Below, one piece after another: positions 22,033 to 33,075 of a stretch of DNA of 33,393 nucleotides. How positions within the stretch are numbered: position 1 is the first letter of the stretch; every line of letters starts with the position of its first letter. Source of the stretch: a virus; the IMG/VR virus record IMGVR_UViG_3300021963_000403, positions 1-33,393 of that record; one strand, written 5' to 3'. The notes under the pieces were generated by a model. That model was not told the origin of the DNA, searched no databases, and saw only the letters and a program-made list of their open reading frames with translations. Made by a program: the position numbers and the translations under genes.

Positions 22033-22986
22033 TTATTGTTGCATACTGAATGTAGGCTGTTCGTGTTGTTGTTGTGCCATACCAAATTGAGTAACCTCTG
22101 ATTCACGAATAGACATACCTGCATATTCAAGTATCTTAGTCACTAATTTATATTCATCTTCGGGAGGTAATTCAAAGTCTTGATAATCATTTTGTGATTG
22201 GTCAAATACAGGCTCCCCATTGGCTAAAGTAATATAGGTCCATTTTGGTACTTTAGGATACCTAAAATAAGTCGCTTGTACCTGACCCTTGTTACTTATC
22301 GTTGTAGGATAAAAAGTCAATTCTGAGCCTTGTAATGCGTAAGCAGGGAACTCCTTAGTTGGAGGAGTTAAATTTGAATTAACCAATAAAGCAAGTTTGT
22401 TATTAATTACCTTTTCCGCTTGAACAATAGTAGCAGAAGAAACAATAGCGTAAGCATTTCCTGAAGCTAAAAATATATTTGAATCTAATAATAGAACAGT
22501 ATTGCTTAATACTGATACCACTGTAGAAATTAATCCTGTTGTTAAATTTGTAACCACATCTCCTGCAGAAATATCCAAGGCTGAAAATCCACCTGCAGAA
22601 TCAACTAATTCATTAGTAACCACCGAAGTGTTGGTTCCAATCTTAAGGATAACCGGCTTACATTTAATGTCTAACAACATATAGGTATCATAACCTGTAG
22701 TCGTAGTAGTAGGCATTGAAAATTTATTGGCAGAGATTTTTGTAAGGTAATCTGTGCGTAAGAAATACTCTAAAACTTCCGCAATTGGTTGCTCAATATC
22801 AGCATAATCAACACCTGACATCCGCCCATTCTCAGCATTTATAACTTTGTTATAACTACTAAAGTACTCCTCATAAATTTCCATCTGTGAGTTTTGGGCA
22901 AACAGATTAAAATCAGAAGGAGATATGTATCCATAGTTATTTTTATTCACTATAGATAATACTGCATTTCTTACTGAGTTTATCAT
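22033..22986 (-). CDS. head-tail connector protein (317 aa)
   Basis: This structural protein starts MINSVRNAVLSIVNKNNYGY, a motif I associate with connector or ring proteins of Bacteroidota phages. I place the start at 22986. The frame can be extended 21 codons upstream to 23049, but that extension runs through a strong terminator hairpin and the promoter, so it is not coding. Residues 127-184 form a beta module (ISAGDVVTNLTTG, then NTVLLLDSN) like one inside the MCP. The C-terminus is Gln-rich (AQQQHEQ). It is the first gene after a promoter/terminator junction and heads the tail-gene unit. The role is inferred from position between capsid and tail genes. Confidence 0.65.
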   Translation of the reverse strand: MINSVRNAVLSIVNKNNYGYISPSDFNLFAQNSQMEIYEEYFSSYNKVINAENGRMSGVDYADIEQPIAEVLEYFLRTDYLTKISANKFSMPTTTTTGYDTYMLLDIKCKPVILKIGTNTSVVTNELVDSAGGFSALDISAGDVVTNLTTGLISTVVSVLSNTVLLLDSNIFLASGNAYAIVSSATIVQAEKVINNKLALLVNSNLTPPTKEFPAYALQGSELTFYPTTISNKGQVQATYFRYPKVPKWTYITLANGEPVFDQSQNDYQDFELPPEDEYKLVTKILEYAGMSIRESEVTQFGMAQQQHEQPTFSMQQ

Positions 22987-23000
22987 TAGTTCTTTTTTTA

Positions 23001-23030
23001 CAAATATACATAAAAAAAAAGAGGGCACAA
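23001..23030 (-). promoter_or_regulatory. Bacteroidota-type promoter driving the tail genes
   Basis: On the - strand a TTG (23028-23030) is followed after 19 bases by TATATTTG (23001-23008). Both match the Bacteroidota sigma factor consensus (-33 TTG, -7 TAnnTTTG) at the usual spacing. The predicted start site leaves only about 8 bases before the ATG at 22986. The -33 element lies in the loop and stem of the preceding terminator, so the two signals are interleaved. Confidence 0.66.
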
Positions 23031-23040
23031 TAAGTGCCCT
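23012..23040 (-). terminator. rho-independent terminator after the 247-aa gene
   Basis: In the leftward transcript a 7-bp stem (AGGGCAC / GTGCCCT on the + strand, 23022-23028 and 23034-23040) with a 5-base loop is followed directly by nine U residues (23012-23020). It lies 33 bases beyond the 247-aa gene stop. The stem can extend by three further pairs if one base is bulged. This is a textbook intrinsic terminator. Confidence 0.85.
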
Positions 23041-23073: not shown

Positions 23074-23817
23074 CTAACCTAAAGTTGCTTCTAACATCTT
23101 TAGAGAGTCTATACCCTCATCGCTCTGTAAGAAGTGGGCAACCATCTCATATGGGTCTTCTCCAAACGGAACGGATAACATTTTCTTTTTGTTGGTGGCG
23201 GTATTAAACCATACCTCTTTCTCACCATTTCTTAATATCAATAACTTGTTCTCAAAGAATGTACGAACCTTGGCTTGGAATTTCAATTCAGGGTCGTTCA
23301 ATATGTTCAAGAACTCCTTAGGGTCTCTTTTAGCAAATACCAATATATCACGCTTTAACTCAGCAGTAGATATGGTAGATGGGTCTTTGCCAAACATCAC
23401 TCTCGTAAGAGTTTCTAATTGGTCTGTTGTAAGCTGACGTGCTTCTACTAATGCTTCAATCTCTAAATCCAAGTCTTGAACCTCTTCTGCTGCGTCCTTC
23501 TCCTTATCTACCTCTACAAAAATGTTGCCATTTAAAGGGTGATAATGTAAGAACTGCTGCAATACAGGGTTTGTTCTTGGGACTCTTAAGAATCCATCTT
23601 CAAAAATGATAGGCTCAATAATGAAGTTTCCGTCTTGCTCGTCCTCAAATGGGGACTTTTGGTTTGTGCAATATCTTAATGCACGATTCATATTGTTTTT
23701 CTCGTCAAACCACATTAGTGGAAAACGAGGATGATTCCTTGACGCTAACGTGTAAGATAGCGGGTTTCCTATTTTCAACTTATAGACTTTGTCTACAGAT
23801 GTTGTACTTTTTGCCAT
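23074..23817 (-). CDS. conserved capsid-module protein of unknown function (247 aa)
   Basis: This soluble, charged protein lies directly after the major capsid gene. Recognisable stretches are RVPRTNPVLQQFLHYHP, an acidic EVDKEKDAAEEVQDLDLEIE helix, FGKDPSTISTAELKRDILVF and VPFGEDPYEMVAHFLQSDEG. I recall this combination from proteins next to capsid genes of uncultured aquatic phages, always without assigned activity. It is flanked on both sides by intrinsic terminators (23849 and 23012), and no promoter consensus is visible in its own leader, so it is probably made by read-through from the MCP unit. A head decoration, head completion or capsid-assembly role would fit; none is shown. Confidence 0.62.
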   Translation of the reverse strand: MAKSTTSVDKVYKLKIGNPLSYTLASRNHPRFPLMWFDEKNNMNRALRYCTNQKSPFEDEQDGNFIIEPIIFEDGFLRVPRTNPVLQQFLHYHPLNGNIFVEVDKEKDAAEEVQDLDLEIEALVEARQLTTDQLETLTRVMFGKDPSTISTAELKRDILVFAKRDPKEFLNILNDPELKFQAKVRTFFENKLLILRNGEKEVWFNTATNKKKMLSVPFGEDPYEMVAHFLQSDEGIDSLKMLEATLG

Positions 23818-23848
23818 TTTATATTTAATTTAATTTGATTTAATTTTT

Positions 23849-23880
23849 AAAAAAGGAGAGTGTCTTTGAAGACACCCTCC
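23849..23880 (-). terminator. rho-independent terminator after the major capsid gene
   Basis: Starting 20 bases after the MCP stop, the leftward transcript forms GGAG, one mismatch, then the 6-bp GTGTCT/AGACAC stem with a 4-base loop (23855-23880), followed by six U residues (23849-23854). The inner stem is one of three copies of the 16-nt near-palindrome GTGTCTTTGAAGACAC in this window. It probably limits expression of genes downstream of MCP. Confidence 0.85.
23860..23875. repeat. 16-nt near-palindrome, copy 2 (in the MCP terminator stem)
   Basis: This is an exact copy of GTGTCTTTGAAGACAC (7-bp arms around TG). It forms the inner stem of the terminator downstream of MCP. With copy 1 it shares 19 identical bases (AGTGTCTTTGAAGACACCC). 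Confidence 0.8.
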
Positions 23881-23899
23881 CTGTAATTTTCTTCCTTTA

Positions 23900-25318
23900 T
23901 TATCCGTAACGGAATAAAACGAAGTTGTTAGCACCCAAGGTACATACGCAACGCTCAGAAAGGAAGTTAACCTCCATTGCATCCAAATCGCTGTTAGTCG
24001 CACCACCGGCAGAACCTGTAATCCAAGTTTTGTATCTGCGGTCTTCAGCTTCAGAAGCACGGTAACGAACGTGTAAGAAAGGACGCTTAGCGTTCTTGCC
24101 CATAATTTGGTCGTACACTGAAGTAGAACCTGCAGGAACCATCAAACCTGTGATAGTACCGGTTGCAGTTGCAGCAGTAGTATTTAAACCACCACGCATA
24201 GTTGGGTCATTTAAGTATTTCCAATCAGACTTGTAGAAATCGTAACCTCTACGGAATCCTGTGAAACCTAAATTTAACGCCATATCAACATCGTTATCGA
24301 AAAGACCAAAAGAAGCTGATTGAGCAACACCACCTGAAGTGTAGCCGTTCAATGTAGCTAACATATTGTCAATATCGAAACTTAATCCACGATTTACGAA
24401 TACTACGTTCTCTTCGATAGCACCTTGCTTATCTAAACGAGAAACGATAGAATCCCAATCAGATAAAGTTGTTGGAGTACCACCACCCCAAACGTTACCA
24501 CGATTGTTTACAACGTAGAAGATACCTTGAGAACCAATGTAACCTGCAGTTGCAGCACCTGAAGAAGATGCAGCAGGAACCGCTTCAATCATTGAAGTCT
24601 CTAAGTAATCCTCAAAACGTAAACGAGTCTCGTGCTCTGATTTCAAATACCACAAGTATCCTGTAGCACCGTTCTCAGTAGTAACTTCAACCCAACCGAT
24701 TTGAGCCATATCTGAGCCATTAACCGCATACTTATCTTTAATGATAATAGGGTTGTTGCTGTAGATATCATCTTCTGATTCTAATGAACCAACCATTCCG
24801 TTAGTTCCTTTCTTAAACTCAGAACCGTAAATGAATACAGTACAAGCTGTAGAAACAGCGAAAGATTGACCTGCAGTCTCGTAGTAAGCTACTGTGAAAG
24901 TAGTTGCTGAAGGAACTGCAGTTACGATAGCCTTGTTGAAAACACCTGATGTATTGTTTTGAATCATCAAAGTTTGTCCAACACGAATAGCGATATAAGT
25001 CACACCACTATCAGCTACAGTGAAAGTTGCTGTTGAAGCACCTGCTGCTGCTGCTGAAGTACAACTTGTGTACTTGATGTGTAAACGTCCTTGTTCTGCC
25101 CATTTGATTTGGTCAGAATTAGACGGCATCTCTGCTCCTACCATACGTAAGAAAGATGCGATTGTTCTATTACCATAACGCTCAAATTCTTTTTCATAAG
25201 TATCAGGAAGATACTGATTCAAAAAGTTGAAGTTGGTAATGTAGTTTGTTTGTAACGCTACCTGTTCTGCAGAGGGCTGCAGGGCATAGGTAGGGGAACT
25301 TAAAAGTGCACTTGCCAT
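23900..25318 (-). CDS. major capsid protein (HK97-like fold expected)
   Basis: This 472-aa protein follows the scaffold gene. Conserved stretches are FNFLNQYLPDTYEKEFERYG (residues 30-49), FLRMVGAEMPSNSDQIKWAE (56-75) and QGRLH (76-80). I associate this series with major capsid proteins of crAss-like and related Bacteroidota phages. Residues about 95-167 are a beta-rich insert (IRVGQTLMIQNNTSG, then AIVTAVPSATTFTV), resembling a module in the connector protein. The middle and C-terminal parts (RRGYDFYKSDWKYLND, FLHVRYR, FVLFRYG) look like the P and A domains of an HK97-type shell. A strong terminator follows the stop. The leader has only A/T-rich sequence, without a Shine-Dalgarno motif. The order supports the call strongly. 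Confidence 0.85.
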   Translation of the reverse strand: MASALLSSPTYALQPSAEQVALQTNYITNFNFLNQYLPDTYEKEFERYGNRTIASFLRMVGAEMPSNSDQIKWAEQGRLHIKYTSCTSAAAAGASTATFTVADSGVTYIAIRVGQTLMIQNNTSGVFNKAIVTAVPSATTFTVAYYETAGQSFAVSTACTVFIYGSEFKKGTNGMVGSLESEDDIYSNNPIIIKDKYAVNGSDMAQIGWVEVTTENGATGYLWYLKSEHETRLRFEDYLETSMIEAVPAASSSGAATAGYIGSQGIFYVVNNRGNVWGGGTPTTLSDWDSIVSRLDKQGAIEENVVFVNRGLSFDIDNMLATLNGYTSGGVAQSASFGLFDNDVDMALNLGFTGFRRGYDFYKSDWKYLNDPTMRGGLNTTAATATGTITGLMVPAGSTSVYDQIMGKNAKRPFLHVRYRASEAEDRRYKTWITGSAGGATNSDLDAMEVNFLSERCVCTLGANNFVLFRYG

Positions 25319-26424: not shown

Positions 26425-26444
26425 TTGATTTGATTTTATTTATA

Positions 26445-26474
26445 CAAAAATAGATAAAAATTTCGACATTTTAA
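26445..26474 (-). promoter_or_regulatory. candidate promoter for the scaffold/MCP unit
   Basis: On the - strand TATTTTTG (26445-26452) matches the TAnnTTTG consensus. A TTA, one base off the -33 TTG, lies 19 bases upstream at 26472-26474, overlapping the portal stop. The sequence downstream (TATAAATAAAATCAAATCAA) ends in the scaffold ATG and resembles the leader at 33061-33083. Confidence 0.55.
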
Positions 26475-33060: not shown

Positions 33061-33075
33061 TTGATTTGATTTTTA

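Follow-up and report, generated by a model that had tools for sequence, protein, structure and literature searches.

Can one short stretch of DNA close an operon and open the next? The question is raised by the 33,393-nt piece of DNA from a flavobacterial virus analyzed here (the window, meaning the whole stretch). Its minus strand carries, in order, genes for a terminase, a portal, a probable scaffold, a major capsid protein-type protein (MCP) and a 247-aa protein, then an element of roughly 45 bases, and then the genes 317, 307 and 1624. A first-pass annotation had read the element as a terminator and a promoter occupying the same bases, and it had placed the stem, the nine-T run, the box TATATTTG and a TTG with a 19-base spacer correctly, letter for letter, on the minus strand (Table 1).

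The element and the genes around it

Read along the minus strand, the element is AGGGCAC TTATT GTGCCCT C TTTTTTTTT ATG TATATTTG TAAAAAAAGAACTA ATG, where the last ATG, at 22986, starts the 317-aa gene. Its first part has the features of an intrinsic terminator. The hairpin, T2, is GC-rich and stable (-14.9 kcal/mol as RNA, z = -4.6), with no equally stable structure among 200 shuffles, and it can be extended with A/U pairs to about 23045; a U-tract of nine T follows after one C. The second part resembles a promoter of the Bacteroidota primary sigma factor. Promoters of F. johnsoniae have TAHHTTTG as their -7 box and a transcript start 4-5 nt past it; the -33 motif is weak, and stronger AT-rich motifs lie at -18 and -28 (PMC6847099). 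Indeed, TATATTTG matches the box, and the block around -18 is AT-rich, with 94% A+T at -24 to -16. An E. coli-type sigma-70 promoter was also considered and rejected, none being present at the site.

Table 1. Positions in and around the element, in window coordinates unless a locus is named
Feature	Position	Strand	Remark
317-aa gene	22033-22986	minus	opens tail operon; fold predicted to resemble crAss001 tail-barrel proteins
Predicted start site (22995-22996) and short leader	22987-22996	minus	leader about 9-10 nt, estimated from F. johnsoniae box-to-start spacing
TATATTTG, -7 box	23001-23008	minus	Bacteroidota primary-sigma promoter type (TAHHTTTG); consensus PMC6847099, PMC9723704
T9 run	23012-23020	minus	terminator U-tract and, putatively, AT-rich block at -24 to -16 of downstream promoter
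Single C	23021	minus	between T2 stem and T-run
T2 hairpin, intrinsic terminator	23022-23040	minus	7-bp stem, 5-nt loop (AGGGCAC-TTATT-GTGCCCT)
TTG, proposed -33 element	23028-23030	minus	19-base spacer; not conserved, probably not functional
247-aa gene	23074-23817	minus	between MCP and element; phrog_34748
T1, separate strong terminator	23849-23882	minus	directly after MCP, without -7 box; conserved in relatives
MCP-type structural gene	23900-25318	minus	phrog_13704
TATTTTTG, probable promoter box of scaffold-MCP-247 operon	26445-26452	minus	hairpin-free; comparison case
Insertions in 247-317 gap, locus L086	4003-5785
Insertions in 247-317 gap, locus L084	3873-4976

At the start of the 317-aa protein, the residues M1 and I2 do not vary among 22-25 relatives. 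A sequence search of the 317-aa protein against the PDB gave only noise. Its structure was predicted with good confidence (pLDDT 84.5), and the best fold matches of the model are the crAss001 tail-barrel proteins (E about 5e-6 to 1e-5; TM normalized to target 0.53-0.61). This resemblance suggests that the element separates head genes from tail-barrel genes, and it agrees with the earlier proposal that tail transcription begins after the element, the first gene of the next operon being a predicted tail-barrel protein. For the 247-aa protein, neither a PDB sequence search nor a fold search gave a match.

The same annotation had MCP transcription ending exactly at the element. This part does not hold, because MCP has its own terminator, T1 (hairpin plus T-run, -19.8 kcal/mol), and the 247-aa gene intervenes. 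The stem sequence of T1, GTGTCTTYAAAGACAC, is kept across very distant relatives, whereas that of T2 varies freely, and T1 may be more than a terminator. We also noticed a period-five leader, AAATYAAATYAAAT, just 5' of the start codons of the 247-aa gene (23818-23848), the scaffold gene (26425-26444) and the 33060 gene (33061-33075). It is conserved in relatives for 247 and scaffold, is absent before 317, and is possibly a translation or mRNA-stability signal.

Conservation and spacing among relatives

Relatives of the MCP are found in the Flavobacterium elemo phages, in the Cellulophaga phages phi38:1, Calle_1 and phi18:3, in the Maribacter phage Panino and in MW202828. We compared 80 IMG/VR loci and six isolate loci gene by gene, and clustered the 247-aa proteins at 70% identity, which gave 35 representatives. 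A hairpin, a T-run and TAHHTTTG come right after the 247-aa gene in 64 of 77 relatives and 28 of 35 representatives, counts that are not fully independent since some relatives share ancestry. When these junctions were shuffled with dinucleotides preserved, the combination appeared in 0 of 700 sequences. Directly before the 317-aa gene, the fused unit is present in 64 of 68 loci and 27 of 29 representatives; the four loci without a called unit include one that looks fused by eye (L041) and one that has a hairpin with TATCTTTA (L069). It is also seen in phi38:1, Calle_1, elemoE and MW202828. The sharing of bases by terminator and promoter, as first proposed, is thus an arrangement conserved in position and spacing.

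What is conserved in the hairpin is its form. A hairpin with a T-run is retained at the T2 position in 69 of 77 relatives with differing stem sequences (57 distinct hairpins in 64 loci); the stems have 3 or more GC pairs, and in nearly all relatives the run is 6-10 T. This bears on the idea that the site holds a promoter alone, or is a place of RNA processing, and that its hairpin serves mRNA stability and not termination. A hairpin with a U-tract can also protect 3' ends. However, a GC stem with 6-10 T that is kept while the stem sequence changes freely is what one expects of intrinsic termination, and no Rfam family reaches threshold at the site, as would be looked for in a known RNA element. 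We consider this reading very unlikely.

The box is more uniform, reading TATMTTTG before 317 in 27 of the 28 box-bearing representatives and TACATTTG in the remaining one. Could it be there by chance or for translation, with T2 only a terminator and the tail genes reached by read-through? Bacteroidota genomes are AT-rich, and TANNTTTG is frequent, with dozens of sites in the window. Other junctions served as controls. At the MCP|247 junction, the terminator T1 is present in 31 of 34 representatives and is fused to a box in only 3 of 34; at the scaffold start, there is a box in 26 of 29 representatives and a terminator in 1 of 29; the starts of MCP, 307 and 1624 have essentially neither. With a terminator lacking the box, a box lacking the terminator, and junctions lacking both, the box does not simply come along with terminators, and it does not mark start codons in general. 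The idea that TANNTTTG is a signal ahead of every gene was rejected for the same reason, the box being essentially absent at the MCP, 247, 307 and 1624 starts. Together with the 0 of 700 shuffles, the fixed spacing of the box before 317 and its absence from those starts leave the terminator-only reading extremely improbable. The element is very probably a real, built-in switch point and not a coincidence.

Two details concern boxes elsewhere. One at the portal gene was discounted because these bases encode INFA(K/R)Y, a conserved stretch at the C-terminus of the terminase. The usual box is TAAMTTTG before scaffold, where the window has TATTTTTG, and TATMTTTG before 317; the two types may reflect strength or timing.

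The TTG inside the hairpin, which the first-pass annotation had taken for a -33 promoter element, did not withstand the comparison: it is at chance level, present in 4 of 28 representatives against 19% in shuffles. Since the -33 element is weak in F. johnsoniae too, we do not require it of a flavobacterial promoter; under a strict B. fragilis-type definition, the site falls short of a promoter in its -33 TTTG/TTG.

The distance between the end of the T-run and the box is nearly constant, at 2-3 nt in 25 of 28 representatives. Its standard deviation is 0.8 nt, versus 2.6 nt for the distance from box to ATG; as the latter is narrow too, the near-constancy could in part reflect compact genomes. 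The hairpin-free scaffold promoters of the relatives show what the promoter has at these positions. They are 98% A+T at -24 to -16, in agreement with the AT-rich -18 and weak -33 motifs of F. johnsoniae (PMC6847099). Since the same positions are the T-tract in the fused unit, the simplest reading of the sequence is that the T-tract serves both terminator and promoter.

Insulation, hand-off or interference

The comparison of sequences establishes both signals, their conservation, their fixed register and their location. On this basis we hold with good confidence that the element is a compact module at an operon boundary: an intrinsic terminator has bases in common with a host-type Bacteroidota promoter, the T-tract would be put to two uses, and the head operon would be insulated from the tail operon. 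Transcripts that get past T1 and extend over the 247-aa gene would end at the T2 hairpin and U-tract, the RNA ending in the T-run. Since T1 already follows MCP, T2 would mainly stop what passes T1. Host RNA polymerase with the primary sigma factor would then begin another message at the TAHHTTTG box, which follows after 3 bases, and this message would drive the 317-307-1624 tail genes. The T-tract would double as the AT-rich block that the promoter has at -24 to -16, and a -33 element would not be needed. A leader of about 8 bases had been proposed; it is indeed likely to be short, but with a start at 22995-22996, 4-5 nt after the box (PMC6847099), we expect about 9-10 nt. The likely purpose is that the heavily used head operon would be insulated, with limited read-through, and the tail operon would be given its own fixed start and its own rate. 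That the element sets the ratio of capsid to tail protein is plausible, because the head operon would be closed and the tail operon would have its own promoter.

The fusion is not indispensable for such a boundary. In phi18:3 and Panino, which have other genes at the site, a terminator remains behind 247 and a promoter with no adjoining hairpin precedes the 317 homologue. Terminator and promoter functions are therefore separable, though they are nearly always found together.

The close spacing of the two signals allows other readings of their relation. In one, the core enzyme would release the head RNA at T2, stay on the DNA over the -7 box, gain sigma and restart at the fused promoter, so that head transcription feeds the tail. 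Such recycling is known for E. coli RNA polymerase on designed templates: it often stays on the DNA after intrinsic termination, and reinitiation at a nearby downstream promoter reached 37-55% in vitro (PMC6978380, PMC6978322). As in those experiments, the promoter here is placed where a terminating polymerase would come to rest; just a few bases would separate the box from the point of release, a closeness that is conserved. However, the evidence comes from E. coli and would have to carry over to the flavobacterial enzyme; the same E. coli work shows long-distance sliding too, so that tight fusion is not needed; and the fusion is lost in Panino and phi18:3. We regard a hand-off as unlikely, and would give an equally low rating to its corollary, a natural polymerase-recycling station that couples tail to head transcription in fixed proportion.

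The opposite effect can also be imagined, with polymerases that pause and terminate at T2 covering the -7 box and repressing the tail promoter during heavy use of the head operon, and tail output lower or later as a result. Given the spacing of T-run and box, a terminating polymerase would be expected to cover both the box and the start site. But many compact promoters that follow a terminator are not strongly occluded, and both operons look like late operons, and we regard interference as unlikely. Sequence alone cannot choose among insulation, hand-off and interference; a hand-off is possible, and interference equally so.

Relation to known boundaries, and distribution of the fused unit

Terminators between capsid and tail genes are already known from T7-like phages. 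In T7, the terminator T-phi lies next to MCP, before the tail tubular genes, and tunes head versus tail expression. The terminator of LUZ100 after MCP and before the tail tubular genes does the same (PMC10134795). The boundary described here is similar in that both of its terminators, T1 and T2, stand after the major capsid gene and before a gene predicted to be tail-barrel-like. It is unlike T7 and LUZ100 in that MCP has T1 as its nearest terminator, and the fused unit comes one gene later with a putative host-sigma promoter within its bases; T7-type systems feature promoters for single-subunit phage RNA polymerases, whereas the boxes here match the host sigma consensus. With the Bacteroidota primary-sigma promoter, the module shares the sequence of the box, an AT-rich upstream block and a short distance to the gene (PMC6847099, PMC9723704), but here the T-tract of a terminator makes up the AT-rich block, and a GC-rich hairpin occupies the -33 region.

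How special is the fused unit? The pattern CTTTTTTTT-N3-TATMTTTGTA was found in at least 120 IMG/VR stretches, and among the matches listed, 113 of 127 were at this site. A control with N8 spacing gave 20 stretches, none of them at this site, and most were one repeated element. This element, CTCACTTTTTTTTAATCTTTTTATATTTGTAATTTGGAATTT, occurs with a hairpin in many IMG/VR contigs (L235-L254, among the control-spacing matches) and is probably the end of a mobile element. A few N3 matches with a hairpin lie elsewhere (for example, L153, L216 and L229), and the arrangement thus occurs in other viral contigs too. In 200 genomes of one host family, the pattern without the final TA had 7 matches versus 5 for a reversed-pattern control, which is near background.

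Terminators of individual phages gave a similar picture. Fused units were absent among the terminators of crAss-like phages, 0 of 10 in crAss001 (first 100 kb) and 0 of 15 in phi14:2. One of 8 terminators is fused in phi38:1, that one at 247|317, and 2 of 5 in elemoE and 2 of 6 in MW202828, in both phages at MCP|247 and 247|317. The module looks specific to this phage group. We found no earlier description of a conserved terminator-promoter fusion sharing a T-tract for Bacteroidota phages in the open-access literature, and as far as that literature goes, this is a deeply conserved and new regulatory module in a widespread flavobacterial phage group. Its layout suggests that bases in the U-tract of a terminator can at the same time serve a Bacteroidota promoter. 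It also offers flavobacterial genetics a compact, ready-made combination of insulator and promoter, and a natural template for asking whether polymerases pass from a terminator to a neighboring promoter. The cultured carriers phi38:1, Calle_1 and elemo make the module directly testable.

Several relatives have one or more additional genes, of about 100 aa, inserted in the 247-317 interval. There the fused unit is still found directly before 317, often with a second copy ahead of the inserted gene. The inserts (MAKFLKI.../MEKFLSI...) occur in L059, L060, L061, L063, L074-L079 and L081, often with their own fused unit, and they are perhaps head decoration proteins. The 247-317 gap is a hot spot of insertion more generally: phi18:3 has six small opposite-strand genes there, and Panino has five small genes.
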